In this document: piece after piece, positions 7,987-51,085 of the stretch
Position numbering within the stretch: position 1 is the first letter of the stretch
Layout: each line of letters begins with the position of its first letter
Source: Nostocales cyanobacterium
Lineage (GTDB): Bacteria; Cyanobacteriota; Cyanobacteriia; Cyanobacteriales; Nostocaceae
NCBI GenBank assembly: GCA_004292695.1
Contig: RDXV01000004.1
Span: forward strand, 1 to 64,000
Direction of reading: 5' to 3'
Length of the DNA stretch: 64,000 nucleotides
Notes under the pieces: generated by a model
What the model saw: only the letters and a program-made list of their open reading frames with translations
Database searches by the model: none
What the model was told of the DNA's origin: nothing
Program-made: the position numbers and the translations under genes

Positions 7987-8003
7987 TATATTATCTCCTA
8001 ATT

Positions 8004-12068: not shown

Positions 12069-12141
12069 GGGAATAAATTCCCTGTCTAAAAGCTAAAGTC
12101 GGTTAAAACCGACTAGAATCTAATGTAATTTACTATTTAAC
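12067..12141. repeat. 75-bp two-hairpin element, copy 1
   Basis: It contains two perfect 8-bp hairpins with 2-nt loops: CAGGGAAT/ATTCCCTG (12067-12084) and AGTCGGTT/AACCGACT (12097-12114). Copy 2 at 13021-13095 differs at one base. Both copies run directly into 49-bp repeat units. Confidence 0.9.
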
Positions 12142-12789: not shown

Positions 12790-12949
12790 TGCTGTACATC
12801 CTGTAAATGACATAATTCCATTGTGAGTGAAATTATTTGTAATTTTTAACTAGACAGCTAACCTGTAAACTAGCAAATTTGATACGATTTAACTTATTTT
12901 AATATTTTGCTGATTCACGGTATATTCACTAAGTATAGCATATAGTAAT

Positions 12950-13144
12950 AAATCACATCCTGAAAATCCTTAAATCCTGGAAATCCTGATTTTGACAAAA
13001 AATCACATCCTGAAATTACACAGGGAATAAATTCCCTGTCTAAAAGCTAAAGTCGGTTAAAACCGACTAGAATCTAAGGTAATTTACTATTTAACAATCA
13101 CATCCTGTAAATTCTGAAATCCTGGAAATCCTGATTCAGACAAT
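12950..13144. repeat. Composite repeat cluster: 49-bp units split by the 75-bp element
   Basis: One complete 49-bp-type unit and the start of a second (about 12950-13016) are interrupted by the second 75-bp two-hairpin element (13021-13095), which is followed by another unit (to about 13144). The arrangement suggests that the hairpin element and the repeats move or amplify together. Confidence 0.85.
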
Positions 13145-13196
13145 TGATACTTTATAATTAATCAATACAAGTATAACTTTTCAAAAGGTAAGAGTT

Positions 13197-13412
13197 ATGA
13201 ACCGATGGGAAAATTTAGACGCAATAGAAAGACAATCTGATAAAGTAAGTGGTGCATGGGTATTTCGAGGAACAAGAGTTCCGGTAGCTGCATTATTTGA
13301 AAATTTGCGTGATGGTGCAACAGTAGATGAATTTTTGGAATGGTTTCCACCTGTTCAAAGATCACAAGTTGAAGCTGTACTTAATTATGAGCTTGAAAAA
13401 TTAGCTGCTTAG
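13197..13412 (+). CDS. DUF433 antitoxin
   Basis: A 71-residue DUF433 protein. GAWVFRGTRVPVAALFENLRDGATVDEFLEWFPPV is the diagnostic segment, and the fold is a winged or homeodomain-like DNA-binding helix set. DUF433 proteins act as antitoxins for DUF5615 PIN-like toxins, and the next gene is exactly such a protein, 2 bp downstream. An AAGG-type ribosome-binding site precedes the ATG. A copy of the 49-bp repeat ends about 50 bp upstream and may hold or displace the promoter. Confidence 0.9.
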   Translation: MNRWENLDAIERQSDKVSGAWVFRGTRVPVAALFENLRDGATVDEFLEWFPPVQRSQVEAVLNYELEKLAA

Positions 13413-13414
13413 AT

Positions 13415-13735
13415 ATGAAAATTCTTTTTGATCAGGGAACTCCTGTACCATTACGGAAATATTTAACAGATCATTCTGTAACGACAGCTTACGAAGAAGG
13501 ATGGTCTAATTTATCAAATGGAGATTTATTAAAAGCTGCTGAATCTCAAGGATATCAAATACTTATAACAACAGATCGGAATTTGCGTTATCAACAGAAT
13601 TTGAGCGATCGCCAAATTGCAATTGTGGTTTTACTGTCAACTTCATGGCCAAAAATTCGTACACAAGTTGAGAAAATTTGTTCTATTATCAATGCAACTG
13701 AGCTTGGTGATTATCAAGAAATTACCATAATCTAA
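13415..13735 (+). CDS. DUF5615 PIN-like toxin
   Basis: A 106-residue PIN-like protein of the DUF5615 / Mut7-C type, the putative nuclease of a type II toxin-antitoxin pair with the DUF433 protein. The N-terminal MKILFDQGTPVPLRKYL carries the first acidic residue, and ILITTDRNLRYQQNL carries the later Asp and Arg typical of the family. The canonical second acidic residue is replaced in part (usually LLxxAE; here LLKAAESQGY). It follows the antitoxin at 2 bp in one operon. Target and toxicity are unknown. Confidence 0.85.
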   Translation: MKILFDQGTPVPLRKYLTDHSVTTAYEEGWSNLSNGDLLKAAESQGYQILITTDRNLRYQQNLSDRQIAIVVLLSTSWPKIRTQVEKICSIINATELGDYQEITII

Positions 13736-13740
13736 CAAGT

Positions 13741-13784
13741 ATCATCCTGAAAATCCTTAAATCCTGGACATCCTGATTCTGACA
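13741..13784. repeat. Single degenerate copy of the 49-bp repeat
   Basis: It contains CATCCTGAAAATCCTTAAAT, then CCTGGACATCCTGATTCTGACA. It lies between the toxin gene and the Rpn-family gene, about 20 bp before the latter's start. Confidence 0.8.
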
Positions 13785-13805
13785 ATAACATAAACAGGGG
13801 CAATA

Positions 13806-14753
13806 ATGACAGAAACAACCGCCAATTATGATCAAACATGGAAAGAAGCAATTACCCAATATTTTGAATCATTCATGGAATTCTTTTACCCCAACCTACA
13901 CGAAAAAATAGATTGGAGTAAAACCCCCATTTCCCTAGATAAAGAACTAGAACAAATCACCGCAGCTAGTCAAACAAAAAAACGTTATGCGGATAAACTC
14001 TTTCAAGTTTGGTTAAAAAACAATCAAATTATTTGGATTTTGATTCATATTGAAGTACAAAGTCAATATGATCAAGAATTTACCCAAAGAATGTATATCT
14101 ATAACTATCGTTCTTTTGATTTATTTCATAAACCAGTTATCAGTTTAGCTATCTTAGGAGATGAAGACAAAAAATGGCGACCGAATAGTTATGAATATGG
14201 AATAGATGATAGTTTCGTAAAAATGCAATTTAGTATTGTGAAGCTATTAGACTATCAATGGGAAGACCTGACCACCAGTAACAATTTATTTGCTATAATA
14301 GTCATGGCACATCTGAAAACCAAAGCCACGACTAAAGACTTAACTCAACGAGAACAATGGAAATGGAACATAGTCAGACCATTATATCAAAAGGGTTTAA
14401 CTAGATTTGATATTATCAATTTAGTTAAATTCATTGATAAAATGATGACTTTACCACCACCATTACAAACCTCATTCAACCAGAAGTTAGAACAGCATGA
14501 AAAGGAGTTAAATATGCCTTTCCTAAGCACAATTGAAGAAATGGCAGAAGAAAGAGGTACAAGAAAAAGTTGCCAAAACAATATTATCAAAATTCTGTCC
14601 AACAGATTTAATAATGTTCCTGAATTGATGAGTGATGCTCTCAAGAAAATCGAAGATATAACTATTCTAGAAAATCTGCTTTTATCAAGTATCAATGTTA
14701 ATTCTTTGGAGGAATTTCAAAAGTTAATTGACGTAGAATTACAGCAGCATTAA
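13806..14753 (+). CDS. Rpn family recombination-promoting nuclease / putative transposase
   Basis: A 315-residue PD-(D/E)XK-type protein of the Rpn/YhgA family. The nuclease core is seen in YADKLFQVWL followed by WILIHIEVQSQYD (acidic residue in the first strand, ExQ in the second). The MYIYNYRSFDLF segment is also typical. A C-terminal region of about 60 residues resembles DUF4351. Rpn proteins promote RecA-independent recombination in E. coli; many cyanobacterial paralogues are uncharacterised. A ribosome-binding site (GGGG) lies upstream. It is flanked on both sides by 49-bp repeats, which fits recombination-prone DNA. Confidence 0.85.
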   Translation: MTETTANYDQTWKEAITQYFESFMEFFYPNLHEKIDWSKTPISLDKELEQITAASQTKKRYADKLFQVWLKNNQIIWILIHIEVQSQYDQEFTQRMYIYNYRSFDLFHKPVISLAILGDEDKKWRPNSYEYGIDDSFVKMQFSIVKLLDYQWEDLTTSNNLFAIIVMAHLKTKATTKDLTQREQWKWNIVRPLYQKGLTRFDIINLVKFIDKMMTLPPPLQTSFNQKLEQHEKELNMPFLSTIEEMAEERGTRKSCQNNIIKILSNRFNNVPELMSDALKKIEDITILENLLLSSINVNSLEEFQKLIDVELQQH

Positions 14754-14810
14754 TGATATAATATCCCTGATTCTCTATTAATAAAAAACCAGGGATTTAT
14801 TGAATATTTT

Positions 14811-14855
14811 CATCCTCAAAATTCTGTATATCCTTAAATCTTGGACATCATGATT
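14811..14855. repeat. Degenerate copy of the 49-bp repeat
   Basis: CATCCTCAAAATTCTGTATATCC and the following TGGACATCATGATTGAGA match the repeat with several changes. It is the right-hand limit of the repeat-rich block that starts near 5.6 kb. Confidence 0.6.
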
Positions 14856-14864
14856 GAGAAAATA

Positions 14865-15323
14865 TCATCGAATTGCTTTAGATTCACATTCCCGTTTTGT
14901 GATAAAATGCCGATAACGAAACATCGCCTCTAACTGAGTTTGTATCAACCAACCAGCAGCAAATTCTACCCCATCCCCACCAGGAAGAACATAAGCAATA
15001 TTATCAGTTAACTTCGTCTTTCCATCTTCTTCCGTGAACTCATGACGATGTACCCAAGACTCAAAAGGTCCTGATATTTGTTCATCAGTAAACAGACGAT
15101 ATTTTTCAAACTTAGTATGACGCGCTAACCAAGTTAACGGTAAGGGTCCAACAAACAGTTTAAATTCAGTTATTGCACCTTCATCAAGTCCACCTTCACG
15201 ACGCAGAACCTGTACAGGTTGCCAAGGTGGTGTTAATAACTGTAAGATATCAGTCCTTTCATGGAATTTCCAAACGACTTCCACAGGTGCATTAATGACA
15301 GAAGAATGAGTAAAGTGCAGCAT
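14865..15323 (-). CDS. SRPBCC (START-like) family protein
   Basis: A 152-residue single-domain protein of the polyketide cyclase/dehydrase-like SRPBCC superfamily, which binds small hydrophobic ligands in a deep cavity. The N-terminal FTHSSVINAPVEVVWKFHER, the ITEFKLFVGPLPLTWLARHT strand, the FESWVHRHEF segment and the C-terminal helix (LIQTQLEAMFRYRH) are typical. The ligand cannot be inferred. It is the last of three minus-strand genes with the CPXCG protein and the radical SAM enzyme; gaps are 30 and 6 bp, so they may be co-transcribed. Confidence 0.85.
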   Translation of the reverse strand: MLHFTHSSVINAPVEVVWKFHERTDILQLLTPPWQPVQVLRREGGLDEGAITEFKLFVGPLPLTWLARHTKFEKYRLFTDEQISGPFESWVHRHEFTEEDGKTKLTDNIAYVLPGGDGVEFAAGWLIQTQLEAMFRYRHFITKRECESKAIR

Positions 15324-15353
15324 GAAACCAATAACCTAAACTGTTACCTCTAA

Positions 15354-15542
15354 TTAACCTTCATATTCGGTGTCTATTTCAATATCTAGCGTATCTTCAT
15401 CAATTCTGACATATAAAATATTGGGACGACAGCAAACCTGACAATCTTCTACATAATTTTGCTGCATTCCTGCACTAAAATCAATAAAAGTTGTGTTTTC
15501 TTCCCCACAATAAGCACAATAAAATTCTGCGGTGTTTTGCAT
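15354..15542 (-). CDS. CPXCG-type cysteine-rich small protein
   Basis: A 62-residue protein. FYCAYCGEENTTFIDFSAG and YVEDCQVCCRPN give two CxxC-type knuckles (CAYC, CQVC), the CPXCG zinc-ribbon family. The acidic C-terminus (DEDTLDIEIDTEYEG) also fits. The function is unknown. It lies 6 bp downstream of the radical SAM gene, probably in one operon. Confidence 0.85.
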   Translation of the reverse strand: MQNTAEFYCAYCGEENTTFIDFSAGMQQNYVEDCQVCCRPNILYVRIDEDTLDIEIDTEYEG

Positions 15543-15548
15543 TTTTCC

Positions 15549-17192
15549 TTACCTCTGCATGGTTATCATTTCTGCACTAGACCGAAAATGACCCATTGCT
15601 TCAGTCAAATGCTTTATTAGTGTAGACTGTGGTAAGGGTCCTTGCAAGTGATTCCAAGGTAAAATTTGCTCAGTTGACCAATTACTATAAACATAAAAAT
15701 CTAAATCGGGAACTTTTCCCTTTAATTCCTTAAAAGCTCGTTTATAACTTCCCAAAGAATCACCAAAACCACGAGTTAATTCTAACAGATAAGAGAGTCG
15801 GCGATCGCCTCTAGATAACAAAGCCTGAATCACAGACCAATTATAACTTTCTGGGCGAAAATCTATACCTTGGGGTTTTAACTGTTTTTGTAATAACTTT
15901 AACCGCTTCTCAGCTTCCTTATTTACCCCAAACCACTGAAAAGGAGTATGGGACTTAGGAACAAATGTACTACATCCTAGAGTTAACCGCAAACCAGGAG
16001 CAGCTTTTTTAACATCCTTCATCATTGTCACCGTAGCATCTAAATCTTCCGATTCTTCCCCAGGAATACCCACCATCCCATATAATTTTAAACTTGATAA
16101 ACCCCCAGCTTTCGCATTAATTCCCGCTTGAATAATTTCCTCATTTCCTAATTTTTTATTAATAATTTCCCGCAGTTTTTCTGAACCACTTTCCACCGCA
16201 ATAGTCAAAGAACGAGTATCACGTTTTGCCAAAGTTGCAGCTAACTTTTCCGTTACCGTATTCGTCCTTACCGAAGCAACACTCAATCTAACATCATCAT
16301 ATTTTGGACGACTAATATAATCTAATAAATCAGAAAATTCAGGATGTTGAGTAACGGAAGCACCCAACAAACCCAGACGGTTAGTAACTTTTAAACCCTG
16401 TTCGATAGCGGGAATTAAAGAATTTTCCAAACTCGCAGTTCTAAAAGGTAAAGTTAAATAACTCGCTAAACAAAAGCGGCACATTTCAGGACAACTCCGC
16501 ACCACTTCCACCATAAAAATATTTTCCCAAGCTGATTTTTCTGTAACAACAGTAGAAGCAGAAAGAGTATTTCCTCGGTAAGTTTGCTTTTGAATAACCG
16601 CTGGAATATCGCTATCAATAGGATTTATAGATTTGATTTCTCCATCATCACTAACATATTCAACTGCATATAAACTAGGAATATAAATACCCGGAACTTG
16701 CGCTAAACGTCTTAATTTTACTTCCCTTTGGGCATTTCTCACTTCTTTATAAGCATCAATAAAATTACCTAACAAAAATTCCCCATCACCCAACAAAATC
16801 ACATCAAAAAAATCTGCAAAAGGTTCAGGGTTAGCAGTCAAAACCGGACCACCACCAAACACCAAAGGATGATTTTCTGTTCTTTCATTAGCACGCAAAG
16901 GAATTTCTAAAGATTCCAAAAGATTGAAAATATTCACATAATCTAATTCCCAAGAAACAGAAAAACCTAATATTTCTGGATTTCTCGGAAGCGGTTCTTG
17001 AATATCAGTAAATAAACGACTCACCTGTAAATCATCACGCATTGCTAAAGTTGCCCAAACCACCTGATACCCAAGACTGGTAATACCCACAGTATACTCA
17101 TTTGGGAAAGCGAAAATTAAAGGAATAGCATCAGTTTGGGGAGTTGCAGGAGTAAATAACAGACGTTCCGAGTTAAAAACAGATGAAGTCAC
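15549..17192 (-). CDS. Radical SAM protein with B12-binding-like N-terminal domain
   Basis: A 547-residue protein. The N-terminal 150 residues show a cobalamin-binding-like Rossmann arrangement (SWELDYVNIFNLLE, VFGGGPVLTANPEPF, ILLGDGE). The radical SAM domain carries CPEMCRFCL near residue 235, a CX3CX2C motif for the 4Fe-4S cluster, followed by LGASVTQHPEF and SVRTNT. It is most like the broadly conserved B12-binding-domain radical SAM proteins of bacteria with unknown substrate. It is first in a likely operon with the CPXCG and SRPBCC genes. Family assignment is secure; the substrate is not known. Confidence 0.9.
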   Translation of the reverse strand: MTSSVFNSERLLFTPATPQTDAIPLIFAFPNEYTVGITSLGYQVVWATLAMRDDLQVSRLFTDIQEPLPRNPEILGFSVSWELDYVNIFNLLESLEIPLRANERTENHPLVFGGGPVLTANPEPFADFFDVILLGDGEFLLGNFIDAYKEVRNAQREVKLRRLAQVPGIYIPSLYAVEYVSDDGEIKSINPIDSDIPAVIQKQTYRGNTLSASTVVTEKSAWENIFMVEVVRSCPEMCRFCLASYLTLPFRTASLENSLIPAIEQGLKVTNRLGLLGASVTQHPEFSDLLDYISRPKYDDVRLSVASVRTNTVTEKLAATLAKRDTRSLTIAVESGSEKLREIINKKLGNEEIIQAGINAKAGGLSSLKLYGMVGIPGEESEDLDATVTMMKDVKKAAPGLRLTLGCSTFVPKSHTPFQWFGVNKEAEKRLKLLQKQLKPQGIDFRPESYNWSVIQALLSRGDRRLSYLLELTRGFGDSLGSYKRAFKELKGKVPDLDFYVYSNWSTEQILPWNHLQGPLPQSTLIKHLTEAMGHFRSSAEMITMQR

Positions 17193-17487
17193 AGGTTCTG
17201 ATTAAAAGCAATAAATTTTCTCAATATAATTTTAACTCAAATTAGCTATTATCGGCACATTGATAGAATGCAAAGATAAAAACCGTATTTTTTACCCCTG
17301 AATTCTCTTGTATATTATTGATTAGGAGCATCCCAATTTTAACAAAATAAATGCGGTGATACTCAAAAACCTCTTATATCCTCTTACCTTTGCGTTCTTT
17401 GCGTTCTTTGCGGTTCAATCATATCAAGTCATGGAAAATTTTATTTCCCTAGATACAATAAAGTTAAACATTTGGGATGCTACCCAT
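17193..17487. other. Intergenic stretch with a short GCGTTCTTT repeat
   Basis: No gene seen. CTTTGCGTTCTTTGCGTTCT near 17390-17412 is a 9-bp tandem repeat that recurs in related forms near 53.1 and 55.4 kb. Confidence 0.6.
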
Positions 17488-17742
17488 TTACTTATATTTA
17501 ACCTTCAACCAGAGAATAATTAAATTAAAAAACAAAGTCAAACTATTAGCAAGAATAATCGGTAAAGCTCCCAAAATAATCCCATAAATCAACCATAAAA
17601 ACAAACCACTGATAAAAGTAATTAGCATCACATAAGAAACATCCTTAGCTGACTTAGTTTTCCATGTTTGAAACATCTGCGGTAAAAAAGCAACAGTAGT
17701 TAAAGTTGCAGCAGCTAAACCTATAATAGTAATTAAATCCAT
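17488..17742 (-). CDS. SemiSWEET-type sugar transporter
   Basis: An 84-residue membrane protein with three predicted helices: 4-19 (IIGLAAATLTTVAFLP), about 37-57 and 61-81. FLPQMFQTWKTKSAKDVS holds the PQ-loop motif. SemiSWEETs are the single three-helix half of SWEET transporters and dimerise to move sugars down a gradient across the cytoplasmic membrane. Length and motif fit well. It stands alone, and the substrate cannot be read from the sequence. Confidence 0.9.
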   Translation of the reverse strand: MDLITIIGLAAATLTTVAFLPQMFQTWKTKSAKDVSYVMLITFISGLFLWLIYGIILGALPIILANSLTLFFNLIILWLKVKYK

Positions 17743-17788
17743 TTTCTTGAATGGTTAGAATCAAAGTATTATCTTATAATATAGCAGT

Positions 17789-19705
17789 TTATTTGTTATT
17801 TATTTTATCCTTCTGTTTTTTAAGATATTTTTTAGCCCAGTTATAGCGTTTTTCATCTTTATTCAAAAGATAGTTAACCAGTTCTTGACGCTGTTTTTCA
17901 TCCTTTATCTTTTTCACAATTGACTTCATTTCTGAATCCATATCTAAAGGTTTAGCACCTCGTTTAATAGCTTCATTAAACCAATATTCACCATCTGAAT
18001 ATTGATATCTTTCAAAACAAATAGCACCCATTAATGTATAGGGATGGTGACTATCTGGTTGAAATTTCATTGCTTGACGAGCGCAATTTTCCGCACTCTC
18101 TAAGTTATCAATATCTCTAAAAGCACCACCCCTAGTCGTTAATAAAGCTGACTTGAGTTTATTATCAGAAATTTTATTCAGTGGTAAGTCATCTGTTAAC
18201 TGTAATGCTAAATTAGATTTTTCTGCTTTACGTAAATGACTACTAGCATTCACTAAATTCCACCTGTTACCAGTTCGTTTAAATTCCTGTTGATAAAAAT
18301 TAGCTTCGATAATGTTATATTGAACAAATATTTTAGCGTAGAAAAAATTATTTTCCTGTAACCAAACAACATCTTGAGGTTCTATTCTCTCACCTTTTTC
18401 TAATTTTTGCAAGATATCACATAAAGGATTTTGCAATGAATTATCCTTATATTCTCTAACACCATATTTTGATTTAAGTAACTCAAAGTGTTTTTCTGTC
18501 ATCAAAATAATAATATCTTGATAATCATTTAATTTTAACCATTCAATTTCTGCATCATTTAATAACTTGAATGATTCTACTTTTGATTTTAGTTTATCTG
18601 AATATTTTTCTTTAGCAGTTTTGACAATATCATCATAACCATTATTTTCTAACCATTGAATATTGTCATCTGTGAAAAAATCTAAACTTCCTATTTTTGA
18701 TTTGAGGAAATCAGCATATTTATCATTGACGATTTTAACTGTATCCAGCAACTTACGCTTTTTCAAATAATTTACATCTTGCTCACCTAAATAATTACCA
18801 GAATCAACTTTTTTGAGTATTTTATAAAGATGAGATTTAGGAGAAGTATCTTCAAAATCAGTTGCTTGATATTTAATCTTTAAATCAGCAAAATCTCGCG
18901 TTTTTTCCTCTTCCTCAGCAATAGCAATAGTTTCAGTTAATTCTTGTTCTTTCAACCAAGCAATTTCTGTATCAATTAAACTTTCTTGAGATGCCAATTT
19001 TTTGAGAATCTGATATAACTGACTACCTACAGATTTACTTTTATATTTAGTAGCTTGATATCTTTCTTTTAACGATGTAAATTCATTTCTTCTTTCTGCT
19101 TCTTGTTGTTTAACAAACCCTAAAGTTTCTAAAAGTTGGTTTTCCTGTAACCACTTATATTCAACCTCAGTTAACCTTTCAGCAACATCTATTTTTTTGA
19201 GAATAGAATACAATTCACTATCAAGATCAGAATTTCGATATTCACTTGCTTTATATTTAGACTTTAAATTTAAAAATTTCCTAGTTTCTACAGCAAAAAT
19301 ATTGATTTTACTGAAACCATGAGCAATTAACCAATTAGATTCTTTCTCAGTTAAAAAATCACCTGCATTAATCCTAATTAAAATGAAATATAAAGGACTT
19401 ATCGCCCAATCAATATTATAATTATTAACTTGATACTTATATTTTAAACTATTAAATTCAACTCCTAATTTTATCCGTTCTTTGCTTTTTTGTTTTTGTT
19501 CAACTCTAATAAAATTAGCAGTATTTAAAAGTTGCTCTTTCTGTAACCAAATATATTCTAAATCACTCAGTTCCAATCCTAAATCAGCTTTTCTGAGAAT
19601 GAAATAGAGTGGACTATCAGGAGAAGTATTTTCATAATTACTAGCCTGATATTTTTCTTTTAAAGCCGCAAAATGTTGAGAATTAATTTCATATTCTTGA
19701 GTCAT
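17789..19705 (-). CDS. Multi-repeat protein with about eight 60-residue units and a TPR-like end
   Basis: A 638-residue cytoplasmic protein made of degenerate repeats. Each full unit reads F-x-x-LK-x-KYQA-x-x-Y, then S-x-LY-x-ILKK, then L-x-x-x-E-x-x-WL-x-x-x-x-L. I count five full units in the first 310 residues, two shortened ones (YADFLKSKIGSLDFF..., YSDKLKSKVESFKLL...), and one more full unit near 410-470. A TPR-like segment follows (SAENCARQAMKFQPDSHHPYT...). I chose ATG 19705, with AGGGTG 6 bases upstream, over a GTG three codons earlier. Such proteins are usually scaffolds, but I cannot name a function. No operon partner is evident. Confidence 0.8.
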   Translation of the reverse strand: MTQEYEINSQHFAALKEKYQASNYENTSPDSPLYFILRKADLGLELSDLEYIWLQKEQLLNTANFIRVEQKQKSKERIKLGVEFNSLKYKYQVNNYNIDWAISPLYFILIRINAGDFLTEKESNWLIAHGFSKINIFAVETRKFLNLKSKYKASEYRNSDLDSELYSILKKIDVAERLTEVEYKWLQENQLLETLGFVKQQEAERRNEFTSLKERYQATKYKSKSVGSQLYQILKKLASQESLIDTEIAWLKEQELTETIAIAEEEEKTRDFADLKIKYQATDFEDTSPKSHLYKILKKVDSGNYLGEQDVNYLKKRKLLDTVKIVNDKYADFLKSKIGSLDFFTDDNIQWLENNGYDDIVKTAKEKYSDKLKSKVESFKLLNDAEIEWLKLNDYQDIIILMTEKHFELLKSKYGVREYKDNSLQNPLCDILQKLEKGERIEPQDVVWLQENNFFYAKIFVQYNIIEANFYQQEFKRTGNRWNLVNASSHLRKAEKSNLALQLTDDLPLNKISDNKLKSALLTTRGGAFRDIDNLESAENCARQAMKFQPDSHHPYTLMGAICFERYQYSDGEYWFNEAIKRGAKPLDMDSEMKSIVKKIKDEKQRQELVNYLLNKDEKRYNWAKKYLKKQKDKINNK

Positions 19706-19806
19706 AAAATGCACCCTAAAATAAAATAAATATCTTTCACAACCTAAATGCTAGAGAAAGAGTATTCATCATGAATACTCCTTAAAAAATCAACTAAAAT
19801 TCACCA

Positions 19807-20037
19807 CTAATAACGATTTTTATAGTAATCTAAAATCTGCTTTACCCTTGTTTCCGCATCAGATGTCCAAGAAACAGACAAACCAGCAATTTGACTTTGA
19901 TAATAGTCAAACTCTGAAGAAGTTTGAGGAATTAAATCTACACTTACCCCTTCCAATTGTCGCAAATGTGCAGCTATTTCTCGATATACCGCCAAAGGTA
20001 AATTAGGAAATTCAATGATTTTGTGAGTTTGCTCCAT
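19807..20037 (-). CDS. Conserved small hypothetical protein
   Basis: A 76-residue soluble protein (IIEFPNLPLAVYREIAAHLRQLEGVSV, ending in a basic VKQILDYYKNRY helix). It reads like a real gene: biased composition, good start, and the typical pattern of a cyanobacterial conserved hypothetical. No motif is recognised. It lies upstream of the repeat protein on the same strand with a 101-bp gap. Confidence 0.65.
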   Translation of the reverse strand: MEQTHKIIEFPNLPLAVYREIAAHLRQLEGVSVDLIPQTSSEFDYYQSQIAGLSVSWTSDAETRVKQILDYYKNRY

Positions 20038-20154
20038 AGAAATAAAATAAAACCGGAAATATCCGGTTATGAAACTTTGTTTTCTGCCATTAATGTAACC
20101 GTGTACAAATTAATAACTGTACTCAAATCACAATCAAAACAGTACCACAAAATT

Positions 20155-21081
20155 TTAAAGAGGTGAATTCATCGCAATTGAATTTCCTACAGAAGCAGTC
20201 TTAGATGGATCAGTTTTGGGTTTTGCTCCCACCGCTTTAGCAACCTCAATTCCGTACTGTTCAAACACCACAATTGGATCAGAACCACCATTCATTTCAA
20301 TTCGTTTTACCAAAACACCATCAGCTAATCTTTGTCCAGCTTGAACATGACGGCTAGTTCTTTCACCAGGTACTTTAATAATCGCTTTGGGTTGTTTACC
20401 AATTAAAACCACACCGCTCACATAAACTGCTTCTGCTGTTTCTGGTTTTGGTGGTTCAGGTAGAACAGGTTCTAACTTTTTAGGAGTTACAACTTGAGGT
20501 ATAACCTTGGGCAGTACCGGTGCTACAGGTGGCTTAGGTTTGGGTAAGGAGGCAATTGTATTACCAGTCCTCACATTTGGTCTTCCTTGGGCTGTACCTT
20601 GTGGCTGTCTTGGTGTTCCTAGCTGTATTGGTTGTCTAAGTTGTGGAGGTGTATTTTGATTTCCACCCCTTGTTTGCTGTGTTGATGGTGTTCTAATTTG
20701 CTCCACAGGCAAAGGTGGAGGTATAGGTACTGGTTTTGGATTCAGAGAAGGAATAGACCTTGGAGAAATCACAATTTCCCCAAAAGGATCATTTCTTCCT
20801 TGTCTTATTTCCTTAACACGCACCTCTGGCTTAGTGGGTTCAGTTAAGCCGGGATTTTTGGGAGCAAAAACAGAACCAACTGTGGGAACAACTTCAGGAG
20901 TAGATCCAGGAGATGATCCGTCAGTGGATGGTTTTGTCGCTGTTGTTGTATCCTGGTTAGCTGGAGGATTTTGTGATGTGTCCTTAGGTGTCGGTGGAAT
21001 AGTTCCAGTGTCTCCTATCGTACATCCGGCGATCGCCAGACTGAAAATAGCCGCAACTGCAATTTTAGAATTTATGCCCAT
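20155..21081 (-). CDS. Proline-rich lipoprotein with a C-terminal PilP/GspC-like domain
   Basis: A 308-residue exported protein. The N-terminus KIAVAAIFSLAIAGC is a lipoprotein signal with lipobox LAIAGC; the Cys is the lipidation site. About 180 residues of Pro-, Gln- and Thr-rich linker follow, then a compact domain near 220-290 (VYVSGVVLIGKQPKAIIKVP, and later GVLVKRIEMNGGSDPIVVFEQYGIEV) that resembles the beta-rich HR domain of PilP/GspC. It may span the periplasm in a pilus or secretion apparatus, but no pil gene is adjacent. I chose ATG 21081 (AGAAGAG ribosome-binding site and signal peptide) over the upstream frame to 21141. It lies 178 bp downstream of sigF on the same strand. Confidence 0.75.
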   Translation of the reverse strand: MGINSKIAVAAIFSLAIAGCTIGDTGTIPPTPKDTSQNPPANQDTTTATKPSTDGSSPGSTPEVVPTVGSVFAPKNPGLTEPTKPEVRVKEIRQGRNDPFGEIVISPRSIPSLNPKPVPIPPPLPVEQIRTPSTQQTRGGNQNTPPQLRQPIQLGTPRQPQGTAQGRPNVRTGNTIASLPKPKPPVAPVLPKVIPQVVTPKKLEPVLPEPPKPETAEAVYVSGVVLIGKQPKAIIKVPGERTSRHVQAGQRLADGVLVKRIEMNGGSDPIVVFEQYGIEVAKAVGAKPKTDPSKTASVGNSIAMNSPL

Positions 21082-21259
21082 TAGCTCTTCTCGATAGCTA
21101 TAGGAAAGTTTGTTTATGAAATTAACACGCCTGAACCACATAATTAAATATTCCAGGCAAAGTCTGTCTTCTTTATAACCTAAATTCTTACTTTGCGCTG
21201 GTTATTTTTAACACTTTCAGATGTAGTAACTAGCTAGTCACTAACCAAAAATTTTAGTT

Positions 21260-22036
21260 TTAGTGATCTCCAGCATTCATAATCTGTTTTAACAAACTCA
21301 GTCCTTTTTTCACCTGGCGAGAAACCGTCACTACACTAATTCCTAAATGTTCTGCAACTTGCTTCTGAGTTAAATCCTGTAAAAACACACATTCGAGAAC
21401 TTCACGAGTCCGATTTTCTAGCTGTACCAGCGCTTGTTGTAATCTGATTTGATCCTCTTGCGCCAACTGGAAACTACGATAACTAGGATCAGGAACTAAT
21501 TCACCCAAACTGGTAGCACCCTCTTCACAATCTTGAATAGGTACATCTAAGCTGAGAGGAGAACGGTTAACCCATGCTAATTTAACTTCCTGCCATTCAC
21601 TGTGGGGAATTCCCAGAGCTTCCGCTATTTCTGCGTCTGAAGGTTGGCGGTTATGTTGTTCCCGTAGAGAACGGCTAATACCGATAGCTTGTTGTTGTAA
21701 GGCTAACCAGCGGCGAGGAATTCGCATAGTTACACCTTTATCTCTCAAATAGTGCTGAATTTCGCCCCGAATATAGGGAATAGCATAGGAACTAAAAGCA
21801 TTACCCTTAGAAAGCTCAAACTTCTCAATAGCTCTAATTAGTCCCATACAACCGACCTGAAGTAAGTCTTCTTGACTTTCTTGACATTGGTTACTCCAGT
21901 AATGAACTTCTTTTCTCACAAGTCCATAATTTAGCTTCACCAATTGATTGCGAATACGTTCTGAAGGACTTTGTTCGTATTCCCGCAAAAGTTGGTAAAT
22001 TTCATGTTTTAGTTCGGTTGTGGCTGTAGTATTCAT
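21260..22036 (-). CDS. sigF: RNA polymerase sigma factor, SigF type (group 3)
   Basis: A 258-residue alternative sigma factor. Region 2 is seen in DLLQVGCMGLIRAIEKFE and SSYAIPYIRGEIQHYLRD, region 3 in PRRWLALQQQA, and region 4 with a helix-turn-helix in LTQKQVAEHLGISVVTVSRQVKKGL. It belongs to the SigF/SigB/SigG-like group that in cyanobacteria controls pilus and stress genes. Its neighbour upstream is psbO, an arrangement I recall for Nostocales. The next gene downstream, a lipoprotein with a PilP-like domain, would fit a pilus regulon, which is an inference. Confidence 0.92.
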   Translation of the reverse strand: MNTTATTELKHEIYQLLREYEQSPSERIRNQLVKLNYGLVRKEVHYWSNQCQESQEDLLQVGCMGLIRAIEKFELSKGNAFSSYAIPYIRGEIQHYLRDKGVTMRIPRRWLALQQQAIGISRSLREQHNRQPSDAEIAEALGIPHSEWQEVKLAWVNRSPLSLDVPIQDCEEGATSLGELVPDPSYRSFQLAQEDQIRLQQALVQLENRTREVLECVFLQDLTQKQVAEHLGISVVTVSRQVKKGLSLLKQIMNAGDH

Positions 22037-22676
22037 AGCACATTGAGGTTGTGAAGTGGTATTTTTTTTAATCGCTTTTTAATTTAGGTCCCGTCATCTT
22101 GGGAAAAATCATCAGACTGTTTACAACTAACTCATAAACTTGTAAACAATGTTTGTAGACAGTGTGCGAGAAAGTCTGGAGGATGAAATCAAAAATACTT
22201 AGGCCTTCCCAAAGATGATGTTGTGAGTTTTTAATTAGTTGGACTTGAGTAGAACTTAGAACTGTGTCGCTTATTAAACAGCTAACCTAGAATCAAAGTA
22301 TACAATTAAAGCACCAATGTCAAACCGAAATCGTACCTAAATTTAGCAAGTTCCCAAAATTAATATAAGATATACCTATAAGTATCTACTCCTTAGATAC
22401 AATTTAATTTTCGCTGAGAAACAGCTATCAATTAGTAAGGTCACGTAAGTAAATCTCTAAACTTCACTTATTCTTAACACAAGTAGTTAAATATCAGTCA
22501 ATTTACTGATGAGAATATACAGAAACTTCACACAAGAATAAAAAAACGATGAAATTTATAGTCATAAAAAAAACCCACTGACCCGTAGACATAACAGGAC
22601 AGTTAGGTTAATTTTTGTTAATTAAGTATTTGTTAATTAAGGGTTGCTATTCCCGTAGCTTACCCAAATTTCTGGA
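22037..22676. other. Intergenic stretch between psbO and sigF
   Basis: No gene is seen on either strand. Apart from a possible psbO terminator at 22566-22607, I find no clear structure. The sigF promoter should lie here, but I cannot place it. Confidence 0.5.
22566..22607 (-). terminator. Possible rho-independent terminator of psbO
   Basis: On the minus strand an imperfect stem, CCTAACTG with CAGTGGG, is followed directly by eight T residues, 70 bp after the psbO stop. The stem is weak (one bulge and one mismatch). Confidence 0.35.
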
Positions 22677-44229: not shown

Positions 44230-47022
44230 ATGGAAAATAACACTTTAAAATCCTGGCATGATCTATTTTTACACTTAAAAGAACAAGGATATCAAATATC
44301 AGCAGGTTGGGAAAAATCAATAATTGAACCAAAAAATGATAATTTACCACCCATAGAAGTCATTAACATAGCAGAAAATGATTTGATTGTTAATTATGTA
44401 GGAAAAATTGAACTACAAACTCTTAGCAACCAACTTCAACTTACTTCAGAAATCATCAAAAACAATTCTGAATTAGCCAAATATACAGTAGAAAATCCCA
44501 GAATTAATATCCAAGAATGGCAAACAGAATCTATTAATTATCAAGTTAGTATCTCTCAAATTAACCCAGAAAACATTATCAAGTTATTTACTAAAAACTT
44601 AGTAATTAATTTACCTCAATCAATCCAATTAAAACTTGATTCCTTAGAAAATGCTAATTTGATTTTATCAAAGTCAGAAATTTACTTAGAATTCACTGAT
44701 AACATTCAAGTAGATTTAAACGATATTTTAAACTTAGACGTTAATATCCAATTACCATCTATCAACATAGAAGAAATATTTAACAGCTTCATTGCGAAAA
44801 TTTTTGGTAAATCTGAACTTGATATTTCCAATAGTAAACTAAAATTATCAAAAGATAATAACGGTAATCAAATTAACCTCATAGGATTAATCAACAACCA
44901 AGAAATTCAATTAACCTTTGGGAGTAGAACAACAGTAAAATATCAACTAACTGATGATCTTGATTTTAGTAGCTTAACCAAAAACATTCCAGTAATTAAA
45001 GAATTAAAATTAAAAAATGGAGAACTAATTATTAGTGATAAAAACTATTGTTATACACATAAAAAACTAGGAAGAATTAATATTAACAAAGGATTTAACT
45101 TTATTGGTGACATTAAACTAAGTAACTTAAAAACAGAATTTAGTGGTTTTCTCAAAGATCAATTAACAATTGATAAATTAGGTGCTTTAATTAGTTTTGA
45201 TCCAGGTGGTTTAGTATGTTTAACAGGTAACATTCAACAAGATATTAACTTAATTTCCGTCCAAGAATTTCAAGCCAATTTTACCAACTTACTAATTAGC
45301 ATCAAAATTAATAAAAACCTAGAACCAAGTTTTAAACTAATTGGTAACTTAGCTGTACAAGGTTATGATTTAACCCAAGAAAATGAACCCACATTATTTT
45401 TGAATGGAGCGGTTGCACTTGAACCAGAATCATTAACAGCATCCTTTGCTCAAACCGGGGAAAATGCTTGGTGTAACCCCTATGGTTTAGTGGGAACAGA
45501 ACTCAGGAATATTTGTTTTCAAGGAGGAGGAACTTATTTACCACCTTACTTTGATAACTTTGGTTTTATTGGTGATTTGAGATGGGATACCATAGACATT
45601 GAGGTAGCATTCCTCATGGATACCAATGATCCTGATAAATTAGCATTAATGTTAACCACAAATCAACCAGTTAGTCTAGTAAATTTATGGCAAGGTCCTC
45701 TATCTGGTTTTGTATTAAACAAAGTTAATGTTTCCACAGATTTAATTTCTCAAACCTTAGAATTTCTGAATAAATTTTTAGATTTAAGTATAGAATCCAT
45801 TGATAGAGAAAATGATGGTAAATGTGAACCATTAATTAAAATAGTTCCCTTCGCAACCGAAATCGCTGGACAACCAATTTCTGCAGGATTAGAAATTAAC
45901 GGTAGAGTCACAGCATGGAATCATCAAGCGAATTTAATTTTACAAAGTGATCAAACATTCCGGGAAATTGCAGGGACATTAAATGTACCAGAAATTGATT
46001 TAGGAGTAGTTAAAATCGGCGGAACAGATGATAATTGTTTAGATTTGGCATTAAAGGTAACACCAACTGAAAAATACTTATCAGGTGATGGACAAGTTGA
46101 GATTTTTGAGCAAGAAATTGCTAAAGTTGAATTTAAGATTACCCCTACTAATGCTATTTTCAAAGACTTTGATTTGAGTTTTGCTAATTTGATAAGTATT
46201 GATGTTGATAATTTGAGTATAGATATAGAAACAGGAATTGGTAGCGGTTCAGGAAAAATTTTAATTTTAGGAAATCAGATAGCCGGTAGTAAATTTTATT
46301 TAACCAAAACTGGAATTTCTATTCAGAATACATCATTAAATTTAGCGGGCTTTTTAACACTAGAAATTGAGAATTTAACAATTAACTTAGTCAATAATAC
46401 AGCTACAGGAAAAGCTGAAATTACTGCTTTTGAGCAATCTTTAGGTACTGGTACTTTAGCATTTGATCATCAAGCTATTACTATTAATCATGTCTCTTGG
46501 AATTTAGCAAATATAATCAAAATGGATGTTCCTAGTTTTAGTCTTGATTTAACTGATAAAAGTATAGCTGGAGTGGGTGATGTGAGTATTTTGGGGAGAA
46601 AATTCTCTGCGTTAGATATTAGCCTCAATGCTAAAGGTTTTCAATCTGTAGGGGATTTTAATTTTGGGGTTTTAGCTTTTCATGGTGCTACATTAATTCT
46701 CAATAAAGCTAAAGATGGTAATATCAATAATTCAGCGATAATTGCCGGTCATGTTAAGTTGTTTGGGTATGATTTTTTCAATGTCAAAGCGAGTGTGAAT
46801 AGTAGTAGATTAACTCTTTCTAGTAGCTTTAATTTTGGGGGAATTATTATTCTCAAAGGATCTAAAAAACGCAAAAATGCCATTATTACTGTTAAGAAAA
46901 ATCAGAATGGACGCTATCAAGCGATTATATCTGGGCGTTTTTATTTATTCAACCAAGAGTTAACAGCTATTAATATTAAGGATTTACAAAATCTGAAAAA
47001 AGCCACAGAAACATCTAGTTAA
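44230..47022 (+). CDS. Large beta-rich protein of unknown function
   Basis: 930 residues, no signal peptide or membrane helix, AT-rich codon use and many Asn, Ile and Leu residues. Sequence alternates short hydrophobic strands of the type (x)L(x)I(x)L with polar turns. The last 350 residues contain degenerate repeats of 40 or so residues (a block ending in DISLNAKGF; similar LSIDIETGIGSGSGKILILG and FSLDLTDKSIAGVGDVSILG), suggesting a beta-solenoid or AsmA/TamB-like stack. A Cys-containing segment TELRNICFQGGG lies in the middle. I do not recognise a family. It lies upstream of the ABC exporter and convergent with it. Confidence 0.6.
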   Translation: MENNTLKSWHDLFLHLKEQGYQISAGWEKSIIEPKNDNLPPIEVINIAENDLIVNYVGKIELQTLSNQLQLTSEIIKNNSELAKYTVENPRINIQEWQTESINYQVSISQINPENIIKLFTKNLVINLPQSIQLKLDSLENANLILSKSEIYLEFTDNIQVDLNDILNLDVNIQLPSINIEEIFNSFIAKIFGKSELDISNSKLKLSKDNNGNQINLIGLINNQEIQLTFGSRTTVKYQLTDDLDFSSLTKNIPVIKELKLKNGELIISDKNYCYTHKKLGRININKGFNFIGDIKLSNLKTEFSGFLKDQLTIDKLGALISFDPGGLVCLTGNIQQDINLISVQEFQANFTNLLISIKINKNLEPSFKLIGNLAVQGYDLTQENEPTLFLNGAVALEPESLTASFAQTGENAWCNPYGLVGTELRNICFQGGGTYLPPYFDNFGFIGDLRWDTIDIEVAFLMDTNDPDKLALMLTTNQPVSLVNLWQGPLSGFVLNKVNVSTDLISQTLEFLNKFLDLSIESIDRENDGKCEPLIKIVPFATEIAGQPISAGLEINGRVTAWNHQANLILQSDQTFREIAGTLNVPEIDLGVVKIGGTDDNCLDLALKVTPTEKYLSGDGQVEIFEQEIAKVEFKITPTNAIFKDFDLSFANLISIDVDNLSIDIETGIGSGSGKILILGNQIAGSKFYLTKTGISIQNTSLNLAGFLTLEIENLTINLVNNTATGKAEITAFEQSLGTGTLAFDHQAITINHVSWNLANIIKMDVPSFSLDLTDKSIAGVGDVSILGRKFSALDISLNAKGFQSVGDFNFGVLAFHGATLILNKAKDGNINNSAIIAGHVKLFGYDFFNVKASVNSSRLTLSSSFNFGGIIILKGSKKRKNAIITVKKNQNGRYQAIISGRFYLFNQELTAINIKDLQNLKKATETSS

Positions 47023-47047
47023 ATTCATACAGCACATTTTATCTGGG

Positions 47048-47113
47048 TGAGGTACACAAGGGCGGGCAGGATGCCCACCCCACAAGAGTTTTATAATTAA
47101 TATTTGTACCTCA
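47048..47113. repeat. Nested inverted-repeat element
   Basis: Outer arms TGAGGTACA (47048-47056) and TGTACCTCA (47105-47113) enclose an inner hairpin GGGCGGGCA/TGCCCACCC (47060-47080, one G:U-type mismatch). A small dispersed element, probably forming a stable RNA or DNA hairpin. Confidence 0.7.
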
Positions 47114-47185
47114 TGTACCTGAAAACAACAATCCTATTTTTTTAAACTAACCACAGAGACACAGAGGTAGAGAAAGGATTACTAT

Positions 47186-47245: not shown

Positions 47246-49039
47246 TTATTTGTGATTATCTGCATGATTGATAGTAGCTTTTTTATGTCTATATTCATTT
47301 ATAGATAAAAATTGCCACTGGGAATTTTCAGCAAGTTCTAATACCCATTGATGGTAAGGAAATAAACTTTCTCGGTGTCCTACACTAATATAAGTGGTGT
47401 TAGTTGCTTGTAATTGATGATATAAATTCTGTTCGTTGTTTAAATCTAAAGCACTGGTAGCTTCATCTAAGATGGTAAAACTAGGATGAGAAATTAATAT
47501 TCTGGCAAAAACTAACCTTTGTTGTTCTCCTAAAGATAATGTATTTTCCCAGTTGACTTCTGTGTTTAAACCTTTAACTCGATTGAGTAAATGCTGTAAA
47601 TTCACTTTTTCTAAAACTTCTTCTAGTTTGCTATCACTGATGTTTTTATCTGTGTGGGGATAAAGTAATTGTTCGCGCAAAGTACCTAAAATTATGTAAG
47701 GACGTTGGGGAAGAAATAGTATTTCTTCTGAGGATGGCCTGACTAAACTACCACTACCAGAATTCCACAAACCAGCAATAGCTCTTAACAATGAACTTTT
47801 TCCTCTTCCACTCGGACCAACTATTAATAAACCTTGACCTGATGGGACATTAACTGATAAATCTTCAACAATTACCTTTTCATAATTGGGAGTTTGTAAG
47901 GTCAGATGATCAAATTCTATCTTACGTTCTTCTTTGAATTTAATAGTGCTGACATTTTCAGATTTTTTAATTACTTCAGATAAGGTATCGGAAAAGTTAG
48001 CTAACCTCTCAACATAACTAGAAAATCTGCCTAAACCACCAAATTCAGCAATTAATGTTCCCAAAGCATTGGCAAAGAAAAAACAACATAAACTAGCTTG
48101 GCTAATTTCTCCATAGTCAATTTGATCTTGGATAAATAAGGGTGTGAGAATGAACATAGAGAATAATGTAATAGCTGACTGATATGCTCTATTAAAGATG
48201 TCCTGTCCTCGTTCCCAATTCATTCTATGTTCAGCATTTTTGATCACATTATCAAATTTACGTTTAATGAGATTTAGTTCTTCATTTTCTCCCTGAAAAA
48301 ATGCGATTGACTCAGCATGATTTCTAACATGAGTTAAACAATAATTAAAGTCTGCCTTAAATTCTAATTCTGCTTTATTAATTTCATTGAGTTTTTGAGT
48401 TAAATAAATCGCAACTATATTTCCAATTACAGTATATACAACTAAATAAATTGTTATTTGTACAGAAATAGTCCACAATACAATTAAAAAAGTGAACATT
48501 TCTAGAACTTTTTCAATGAAAGTTGCGGAAAACCTTAAAGCATTTATGGTAATTGGTTCTAATTCTTGGGCTATACGTTGATCTGGGTTTTTAAGAGTGG
48601 AGCGAAGATTTATTTGATAGTAAGCTCGACTGCTAAAATATTTTTCTAAAATGTAATTATTTAACCATTTGTACCAGTCTAAAGAGATTTTTTTACTAAC
48701 GTATCTGGAGAACCCTACAAATAAGACTGTGATGACAATTGCTAGGGTAGAAACCCACAATGTACTAAAATATTTATTAATGTCTCTTTCTTCAATTACA
48801 ATATCAAGAACATAACGATTCCAGTAGCTACTGAAAGCACTCATGGATACTGTTCCCAATATTAATGATAGGAGTAAAAGTAACATTCCCCATGAGCGAA
48901 TTACTTCCGTAAATGCTCTACCTTGGACGTTGGTGGGATACCAATAAGGTTGGGCAACAACTCGGAGGTCTTGCCAAAATTGAGTAAATACGGAGAGGGG
49001 ATTTTTTTTGCTTGGATCACTGACAACTGGGTTAGACAT
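47246..49039 (-). CDS. ABC transporter, fused permease and ATPase (possible microviridin exporter)
   Basis: About 597 residues. The N-terminal permease has five or six predicted membrane helices (MLLLLLSLILGTVSMSAF, LVVYTVIGNIVAIYL) of the SbmA/BacA or ABCD type. The C-terminal ATPase has Walker A GPSGRGKSSLLRAI near residue 405, signature LSLGEQQRLVFARIL, Walker B and D-loop TILDEATSALD, and the H-loop His (VGHRESL). I chose ATG 49039; the frame further upstream to 49060 has only a TTG. 351 bp upstream on the same strand lies a microviridin precursor, and microviridin clusters carry an ABC exporter of this half-size type (MdnE). Export of the modified peptide is an inference from position. 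Confidence 0.85.
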   Translation of the reverse strand: MSNPVVSDPSKKNPLSVFTQFWQDLRVVAQPYWYPTNVQGRAFTEVIRSWGMLLLLLSLILGTVSMSAFSSYWNRYVLDIVIEERDINKYFSTLWVSTLAIVITVLFVGFSRYVSKKISLDWYKWLNNYILEKYFSSRAYYQINLRSTLKNPDQRIAQELEPITINALRFSATFIEKVLEMFTFLIVLWTISVQITIYLVVYTVIGNIVAIYLTQKLNEINKAELEFKADFNYCLTHVRNHAESIAFFQGENEELNLIKRKFDNVIKNAEHRMNWERGQDIFNRAYQSAITLFSMFILTPLFIQDQIDYGEISQASLCCFFFANALGTLIAEFGGLGRFSSYVERLANFSDTLSEVIKKSENVSTIKFKEERKIEFDHLTLQTPNYEKVIVEDLSVNVPSGQGLLIVGPSGRGKSSLLRAIAGLWNSGSGSLVRPSSEEILFLPQRPYIILGTLREQLLYPHTDKNISDSKLEEVLEKVNLQHLLNRVKGLNTEVNWENTLSLGEQQRLVFARILISHPSFTILDEATSALDLNNEQNLYHQLQATNTTYISVGHRESLFPYHQWVLELAENSQWQFLSINEYRHKKATINHADNHK

Positions 49040-49245
49040 TTTTGTATATGTGTTGTGCAATCAGTACGGACAAGGAAATTTTTTGGGATTTTACGTACTT
49101 ATATCATGTCTGTTTGCACACTGGCCATCTCAGCACAAATTTAGTGATTTAAATTATGATTTAAGTTAAAAATATTACTGGTTTAATGAGTACAAAAAAG
49201 TACCTAGTGAGAATTAGTCGTCTAATTATGTATTTTTAACCATTA

Positions 49246-49348
49246 AAAGAAACCTTGTTTGATTTATAAATAAGTTATAAAATTGTGAACTTATTTAATA
49301 GGAGTTTGTACCTAAATATAGGTAACAATCATCAAACAAGATTTCTTT
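49246..49348. repeat. Long inverted repeat between precursor and transporter genes
   Basis: Left arm AAAGAAACCTTGTTTGAT (49246-49263) and right arm ATCAAACAAGATTTCTTT (49331-49348) pair over 18 bp with one C/T difference (a G:U pair in RNA). The 67-bp centre holds a smaller ACCTA-AATA-TAGGT hairpin. It could act as attenuator or processing site between the two genes, or be a MITE. Confidence 0.7.
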
Positions 49349-49389
49349 AATTTGCAAAGGAAAATGAAGGAAATGAAATTTATGTGTAA

Positions 49390-49542
49390 TTACATATCTT
49401 CCCAATCAGAAGGCCATTTCCAAGTCCAGATTGGGGGAAAGGGAAGCGGTTGTGGTTCTGCGGGTTGTTCTTGGGGATCTTCTTCAACCAAGAAGCGGGC
49501 AAAAAATGGTACTGCTTGATTATCTAAGATTTTTTTAGACAT
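49390..49542 (-). CDS. Microviridin (graspetide) precursor peptide
   Basis: A 50-residue peptide. The leader contains PFFARFL (residues 12-18), the hallmark that the ATP-grasp ligases of microviridin clusters bind. An acidic and proline-rich linker follows. The core at the C-terminus is TWKWPSDWEDM (40-50), matching the microviridin core pattern T-x-K-x-P-S-D-W-E. Known chemistry predicts two ester (lactone) bonds from the core Thr and Ser to the acidic side chains and one amide from Lys, giving a tricyclic serine-protease inhibitor. The ATG is 49542. The half-size ABC exporter follows on the same strand. No ATP-grasp ligase (MdnB/MdnC type) or acetyltransferase is found in the window, so the modifying enzymes are elsewhere or lost. 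Identity of the peptide is firm; function and product are inference. Confidence 0.88.
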   Translation of the reverse strand: MSKKILDNQAVPFFARFLVEEDPQEQPAEPQPLPFPPIWTWKWPSDWEDM

Positions 49543-50203: not shown

Positions 50204-50833
50204 CTAACAAGCAACTGCGCTAAGTATATCTAAACTGGTTTGAGCCGCTTCTCTCACATCAGGATGGGTGTCTTTTTCCATTAAACTATTTAAAAAGGGA
50301 ATAGCTTCTACAACTTCTAATTCTCCTAATTCATCAGCTGCACTTTCACGAACTATATAATCATGATCGTTGAGACTTTCTATTAATAAAGGTAACGCTT
50401 TTTCTGGATATAAACGTCGCATAAATCGCAAAACACTACTTCTGACATAAGGAGAAGAATGTTCACGCAAAGCTAATACAGGTTTGAGATTACCAATAAC
50501 TCCTAACCTACTTAAACTATCTATTGCTTCCATGACAATTAATGGACGTTTATCATGAAGATAGTTAACCAGTAAATTCAATAATTCAGATTGAGAAAAT
50601 GGATGTTCTAGCGGTACTTCTGCGAGTGCAAATAAAATTGCTTGCAACTGTGCTGTATTCGCTTTATCAATTTCATTCCATAAGAATTTTATCCCCATTT
50701 CTCCTTGTGTAGCGATGAGGTAGGATACTTCTTGATAGAAAAGTACAGCATCTTCATTTTCAGGTGCAGGAAGTTGAAAAATTCTGATTAGCTGTTCTAG
50801 GTTCAGGTGATCGAGTTCTGGGTAAAAACTCAT
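50204..50833 (-). CDS. HEAT-repeat protein
   Basis: 209 residues of alpha-helical HEAT / PBS-lyase-like repeats: DKRPLIVMEAIDSLSRLGVI, SPYVRSSVLRFMRRLYPEKALPLLIESL, DYIVRESAADELGELEVVEAIPFL and HPDVREAAQTSLDIL. In cyanobacteria such proteins include bilin lyases and adaptor scaffolds; no lyase residues are identifiable. It lies 27 bp downstream of a 74-residue gene on the same strand and could be its partner. If the deaminase remnant was a toxin, an immunity function for this gene is possible, but only by position. Confidence 0.8.
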   Translation of the reverse strand: MSFYPELDHLNLEQLIRIFQLPAPENEDAVLFYQEVSYLIATQGEMGIKFLWNEIDKANTAQLQAILFALAEVPLEHPFSQSELLNLLVNYLHDKRPLIVMEAIDSLSRLGVIGNLKPVLALREHSSPYVRSSVLRFMRRLYPEKALPLLIESLNDHDYIVRESAADELGELEVVEAIPFLNSLMEKDTHPDVREAAQTSLDILSAVAC

Positions 50834-50860
50834 TTGATACCTCCTAATAGTTCATTATTA

Positions 50861-51085
50861 TCACTCCTCATAAGTTTTTATTTCATTAAGATTCATATCA
50901 CGAAATTCACCAGGAAACTCTTTACCTAACTTAGCAGGAAGATTAGATATTTTAATTAATCCATTATCACGTAAAGAATTAAGTTCCTGAATTTTTTCAT
51001 CTGACAACCTTAAACCATATTTATTGGCTAACCTTTCATATTGTGTCAGTATTTTAATTGCCTTTTTCGCATTTTGACTTGTCAT
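50861..51085 (-). CDS. Small hypothetical protein upstream of the HEAT gene
   Basis: 74 residues, basic N-terminal helices (NAKKAIKILTQYERLANKYGLRL) and a C-terminal FPGEFRDMNLNEIKTYEE segment. The last part resembles the short joint before toxin domains in polymorphic toxins, but this is weak. It precedes the HEAT-repeat gene by 27 bp and probably shares its mRNA. Confidence 0.6.
   Translation of the reverse strand: MTSQNAKKAIKILTQYERLANKYGLRLSDEKIQELNSLRDNGLIKISNLPAKLGKEFPGEFRDMNLNEIKTYEE

Follow-up and report, generated by a model that had tools for sequence, protein, structure and literature searches.

Microviridins are tricyclic peptides that inhibit serine proteases. Class I microviridin clusters, namely, mdnA–E of Microcystis and mvdA–E of Planktothrix, encode a precursor with a PFFARFL leader and a TxKxPSD core, the MdnB and MdnC ligases, and an MdnE-type exporter. 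As described in PMC7823629, both ligases require the PFFARFL motif of the leader; MvdD/MdnC forms the two esters, and the amide is closed by MvdC/MdnB. According to the same paper, MdnE may scaffold the modification complex, and an MdnD-type GNAT is present only in a subset of the clusters. GUN4 proteins have been described in microviridin clusters of Fischerella and Nodularia (PMC4558948), and microviridin genes beside NRPS clusters have been described as oligopeptide islands (PMC7232259).

The window analyzed here, a stretch of 64,000 nucleotides from a Nostocales cyanobacterium, lies on contig C162 (80,471 bases) of genome G000 (324 contigs with 5,393,899 bases in total; listed completeness, 99.97%). 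It contains a precursor and one MdnE-type exporter (E1); both ligases and a second MdnE-type exporter (E2) are encoded on another contig, C320 (Table 1). The locus is like the class I clusters in its leader, core, ligases, and exporter type but differs from them in that the precursor is unlinked from the ligases, that there are two exporters, one per site, and that G000 has no match (E ≤ 0.001) to the cluster GNAT of a relative. The same separation was found in G168, the sole other genome of the genus compared. We read this as a broken but maintained pathway in which the ligases would modify the precursor in trans, guided by its intact PFFARFL leader, with a probability of about 0.8 judged from the sequence comparisons.

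Table 1. Features at the precursor site (window) and at the ligase site on C320; L014 denotes C320 8000–22405
Feature	Location	Strand	Remarks
930-aa protein without known family	44230..47022	+	Convergent with E1
E1, MdnE-type half ABC exporter	47246..49039	-	597 aa from ATG 49039; alternative TTG at 49060
Structured RNA element, branched hairpin with long outer stem	49244..49352	-	Just 3' of the precursor stop, before E1
Class I (single-core) microviridin precursor, mdnA/mvdE type	49390..49542	-	50 aa, ATG start; sequence MSKKILDNQAVPFFARFLVEEDPQEQPAEPQPLPFPPIWTWKWPSDWEDM
MdnC-type ligase	L014 8396-9376	-	TIGR04184 550.8 bits (cut-off 475); 5ig9 E 5.4e-159
MdnB-type ligase	L014 9475-10461	-	TIGR04185 517.9 bits (cut-off 425); 5ig8 E 2.8e-144
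E2, second MdnE-type exporter	L014 10515-12641	-	708 aa

Precursor, hairpin, and exporter in the window

The original prediction, a microviridin precursor with a PFFARFL leader beside a half-size ABC exporter, gave correct coordinates for both genes and was borne out by family models. The precursor scored 38.5 bits against Pfam PF12559 (cut-off 21) and 31.9 bits against NCBIfam NF033738 (cut-off 26), and the exporter E1 contains the Pfam domains ABC_membrane_2 and ABC_tran. The peptide has a leader with the exact PFFARFL helix motif, a proline-rich linker, and the core IWTWKWPSDWEDM, in which TWKWPSDWED presents one TxKxPSD core followed by acidic residues; both the leader and the core are those of class I. 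In a search of G000 at E ≤ 10, it was the only PF12559 match over the cut-off. A second match, on contig C292, reached 12.1 bits, contained one stop, and was rejected as a precursor.

The core had been called unusual for three Trp residues in WTWKWPSDW; there are four, and the description holds in one respect only. Among 50 distinct single-core precursors, defined as those with exactly one core-motif match, IWTxKWPSDW was common to six, whereas the Trp directly after Thr occurred in the window precursor alone. Residue 5 of the microviridin core is described as governing protease preference (PMC7823629), and Trp at this position suggests a chymotrypsin-like target. The window precursor carries a microviridin core with Trp5, which is absent from the other 49 cores compared. 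The leader of the window precursor reads FLVEED with a proline-rich tail and has no LEEQ/LAEQ motif; the G168 leader carries LAEQ. NosP, a leader protease encoded 0.8 Mb from its cluster, is tied in PMC13039773 to LEEQ/LAEQ leaders, and proline-rich leaders such as that of the window precursor may be cleaved by a protease other than NosP. One M1 peptidase match was found in each of G000 and G168.

Between the precursor and E1, the stretch 49235–49363 (−) folded with −33.2 kcal/mol (z −6.3), and its counterpart in G168, which aligned with it, gave a z of −6.7. Values of z ≤ −5 were found in 15 of 54 stretches of 160 bases 3' of precursors (L099 gave −10.2). In the nearest single-cluster relatives, however, z was only −0.9 to −2.3 (L080–L084) and −3.8 (L089), so the hairpin is a variable feature of these clusters. 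An Rfam identity was rejected, the one match reaching 17.1 bits against a cut-off of 38.3. A possible role of the predicted hairpin would be to balance precursor and exporter levels.

MdnE-type ABC transporters are common but not universal in microviridin biosynthesis; E1 and E2 were so named from cluster position and homology rather than from a family model. The ATG start of E1 fits the G168 homologue better than the alternative TTG. The C-terminal tail of many such exporters (e.g., L014 10515–12641 and L089 5771–7792) is missing from E1 and its G168 homologue.

The 930-aa protein encoded on the other side of E1 matched nothing in NCBIfam at E ≤ 0.001 or in Pfam at E ≤ 1. Homologues with 54–56% identity are encoded near microviridin genes in L089, L098, L101, L115, and L167, and in some microviridin loci the gene adjoins E1 or the ligases. 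A short dispersed repeat (47028–47127), with many partial copies among the matches listed in G000, separates this gene from E1, and a similar stretch was seen by eye at L014 8301–8355, 3' of the MdnC-type gene on C320. The repeat was rejected as the cause of the split because G168 lacks it; there, the distance from the E1 stop to the 930-aa gene is only about nine bases. Between the precursor and sufS, the window contains a HEAT-repeat gene and a 74-aa ORF (50204–51085, −), for neither of which a homologue was found in the G168 locus, L078.

The separate ligase site and its counterpart in a second species

The original prediction had noted no ATP-grasp ligase in the window and proposed that the ligases act from elsewhere or that the locus is reduced. 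A search of the whole G000 genome with TIGR04184 (E ≤ 10) gave three matches: an adjacent pair on C320 and a 12-bit match on C183, with none on C162. Both proposals are partly true: the ligase pair is on C320, and the window locus corresponds to part of a cluster that relatives carry undivided. The refuting outcome, a genome with no ligase, did not occur, since G000 has one intact MdnB/MdnC-type pair, transcribed in the order E2, MdnB-type, MdnC-type. Among solved structures, the MdnB-type ligase matched chain 5ig8 best and the MdnC-type ligase 5ig9; we take 5ig8 to be MdnB and 5ig9 to be MdnC, which agrees with the MvdC/MvdD family names. The suggested search for a GNAT acetyltransferase failed: with the cluster GNAT of the relative G203 as the query, no match was detected in G000 at E ≤ 0.001, and in G168 the only match spanned 48 residues in an ORF of 56 aa. 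The microviridin cluster has therefore lost genes. On C320, an NRPS gene lies directly beside E2 without an IPMS-like gene, and a gene judged by eye to be TPR/CHAT-like comes after the MdnC-type gene; GUN4 is on a third contig, C209.

Genome G168 consists of two contigs, the main one of 5,144,906 bases; at E ≤ 0.001, it gave a single match to PF12559 and two to TIGR04184. Its precursor, MPSKILEPQVKPFFARFLAEQEPPEKPEEPQPAPQPASPPPIWTFKWPSDWEEI, is 66% identical to the window precursor. As in the window, its gene is adjacent to E1 (85% identical), and the two are flanked by the 930-aa gene and sufS; sufS, sufD, sufC, and sufB are 88–95% identical between the two genomes. The MdnC-type ligase is on the same contig as the precursor at a distance of 1,202,639 bases by starts (about 1.20 Mb); in G000, the ligases are on another contig. 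The order at the G168 ligase site is E2, MdnB-type, MdnC-type, GNAT remnant, and GUN4-domain gene. An NRPS on the E2 side (72% identical) is common to both ligase sites, whereas the other flank differs, and the site in G000 is the more broken of the two. Since the separation recurs in a related species, the parts probably still cooperate at a distance.

Substitution rates between G000 and G168 (NG86) were obtained for the five core genes. The dN/dS value was lowest for the MdnC-type ligase (0.07), followed by E1 (0.12), the MdnB-type ligase (0.15), and E2 (0.16), and was highest for the precursor (0.33, calculated over 50 codons). The dS values at both sites were 0.65–0.75, and those of comparison genes were 0.42 (sufS), 0.77 (930-aa gene), 0.82 (CAAX protease), and 0.89 (GUN4). 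Together, these values fit vertical descent of both sites under purifying selection. They also bear on the strongest alternative, a decaying remnant in which a rearrangement parted the precursor from the ligases and no product is made any more. The loss of the GNAT (no match in G000, a remnant in G168) and the displacement of GUN4 to C209 in G000 speak for decay, but all five frames are open in both species, with dN/dS of 0.07–0.33 at dS near 0.7, and both precursors keep the leader motif and all ring-forming positions. We therefore regard decay as unlikely.

The C320 ligases could instead serve another, unrecognized precursor, with the window peptide left unmodified or handled by other enzymes. 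PMC8939145 describes some graspetide ligases whose precursors were not found and may be missed or far away. However, neither G000 nor G168 has a further PF12559 match over the cut-off, and a hidden precursor on C320 was rejected, as a motif scan of 8000–22405 and the genome-wide PF12559 search found none. Moreover, the ligases belong to the microviridin type, and in relatives a precursor of the same type lies between E2 and MdnB; this alternative is decidedly improbable. An assembly artefact, conceivable for a genome in 324 contigs, can be dismissed almost entirely, because the precursor is more than 30 kb from either end of C162 and the same separation is found inside one contig of the two-contig genome G168.

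In the maintained pathway that we favor, the window site would make the precursor and E1, and the C320 site both ligases and E2. The ligases would recognize the PFFARFL helix of the window precursor in trans; the MdnC-type ligase would form two lactones (Thr-Asp and Ser-Glu) and the MdnB-type ligase a lactam (Lys-Asp), in the ring pattern predicted for this core. After ring closure, the leader would be cut off and the product would exit via E1, E2, or an E1/E2 dimer. As a hypothesis, the retention of an exporter at each site would be expected if its function were needed at the place of peptide synthesis as well as at that of ligase synthesis. Having a single precursor, a single ligase pair, and an exporter at either site, the organism offers a natural test of whether MdnE exports the product or scaffolds the ligases.

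Single clusters in relatives and the origin of the split

In Nodularia spumigena, Sphaerospermopsis, and Dolichospermum-type relatives (L080, L082, L083, and L084), the same genes form one cluster in the order NRPS, IPMS-like gene, E2, precursor, MdnB, MdnC, E1, and GUN4. The run from E2 to E1 is thus unbroken there, whereas in our two genomes the precursor and E1 are elsewhere. The G168 ligase site has the NRPS, IPMS-like gene, E2, and GUN4 of these clusters; upstream of E2, its NRPS is 68–72% and its IPMS/homocitrate-synthase-like gene 77–85% identical to theirs, the latter being named from its best NCBIfam models, all below their cut-offs. Since the site keeps the gene order of the relatives, it is the old cluster site minus the precursor and E1. 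The cluster of G203 (L089, a locus that begins at the edge of a contig) is arranged differently: precursor, MdnB, MdnC, patatin-like gene, 133-aa gene, E1, GNAT, GUN4-type gene, and 137-aa gene, followed in the opposite direction by a homologue of the 930-aa gene. An E2-like exporter of G203 is on another contig, with no microviridin gene recognized in 16 kb around.

Quick maximum-likelihood trees with SH-aLRT support were constructed from exporter ORFs longer than 500 aa and ligase ORFs longer than 280 aa; the G203 E2-like exporter was left out, as were the duplicates L100, L111, and L135, which were also left out of the core count. E1 of the window grouped with that of G168 (support 100) and then with that of G203 (99). 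Likewise, the C320 ligases grouped with those of G168 (MdnB-type 99, MdnC-type 100) and then with those of G203 (80 and 87), the MdnC-type ligases of L080 and L082–L084 forming a separate clade. E1 and the ligases, now unlinked, therefore have one nearest relative, the single-cluster genome G203. By contrast, E2 grouped with the cluster-linked E2 of L080, L082, L083, and L084 (100), in line with the site flanks. The trees thus conflict on the origin, with E2 and the ligase-site flanks pointing to Nodularia-type clusters and the ligases, with moderate support, to G203; the cause could be uneven rates or recombination among different types of cluster.

The split may have arisen either by duplication of the cluster and complementary gene loss or by relocation of the precursor and E1 out of the old site. 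Compared with the G203 order, the partition is interleaved: the precursor, E1, and the 930-aa gene are at one site, and E2 and both ligases, plus the GNAT remnant and GUN4 in G168, are at the other. For this reason, duplication with complementary loss is the simpler origin. More tentatively, and with the odds against it, we suggest that a duplicated cluster gave rise to a substrate-plus-exporter module (precursor and E1) and an enzyme-plus-scaffold module (E2, MdnB, and MdnC), which stayed separate while the two species diverged; the proposed export and ligase-scaffold roles of MdnE would then be divided between E1 and E2, which might meet as a membrane heterodimer.

Unlinked precursors in Nostocaceae and described systems

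PF12559 precursor matches were found in 112 of 217 Nostocaceae genomes searched. Linkage was counted in 99 of these 112, from 150 precursor and 150 ligase matches listed; among the matches listed, the precursor was within 20 kb of a ligase in 89 genomes and not in 10, namely, G000, G168, and eight others. A ligase-like ORF was present in the flank examined for four of the eight (L147, L150, L152, and L153), and none was found in the flanks examined for L146, L148, L149, and L151, all of which are multi-core double-glycine precursors. Two of the latter genomes, G137 and G153, contain a single PF12559 match each; sole precursors without linkage to a ligase therefore occur outside this genus as well. 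Further graspetide precursors, mostly multi-core, had no recognized ligase in the flank (L154, L155, L157, L158, L159, L161, L162, L163, and L090). In L085 (genome G102), the leader and core of a precursor (11079–11300, −) are in different frames beside intact ligases and an exporter; G102 is not among the genomes with a PF12559 precursor match in the 217 searched.

An MdnC-type ligase was present in the stretch examined for 33 of 38 E1-clade exporters. Ten of these loci had been obtained otherwise than by the exporter search, eight of them for their ligase or precursor, and a fairer figure is therefore that for loci found by the exporter alone (25/28). The E1-clade loci without an MdnC-type ligase were the window, G168, L105, L113 (at a contig edge), and L116. 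The last appears to be one locus with L165 (8240–13577, +), which encodes a single-core precursor, a patatin-like protein, a 133-aa protein, E1, and a GUN4-type protein, with no ligases in the stretch examined. Lone E2-type exporters, with no precursor or ligase recognized in their flanks, were also seen (L117, L118, L120, L124, L126, L127, L129–L132, and others).

In the literature on split, orphan, or unlinked microviridin, graspetide, and RiPP precursors, covered mostly outside subscription journals, we found no report of a split like this one. Genome mining that looks for precursors next to their ligases would register each half as incomplete. As described in PMC10783134, prochlorosins are alike in that precursors are encoded away from the modifying enzyme (ProcM/SyncM with scattered procA/syncA), but they are lanthipeptides with many precursors per enzyme, whereas here there is one precursor for one ligase pair. 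Closer likenesses are the unlinked graspetide precursors of other Nostocaceae, which have no recognized ligase in the flank examined but occur in genomes that encode ligases elsewhere. They differ from the present case in that L146, L148, L149, and L151 are multi-core double-glycine precursors without E1, and in that L165, which is single-core with E1, belongs to a genome with at least three other MdnC-type loci among the matches listed. A precursor unlinked from its ligases is thus already known in other Nostocaceae, and the present split is a variant of that arrangement.
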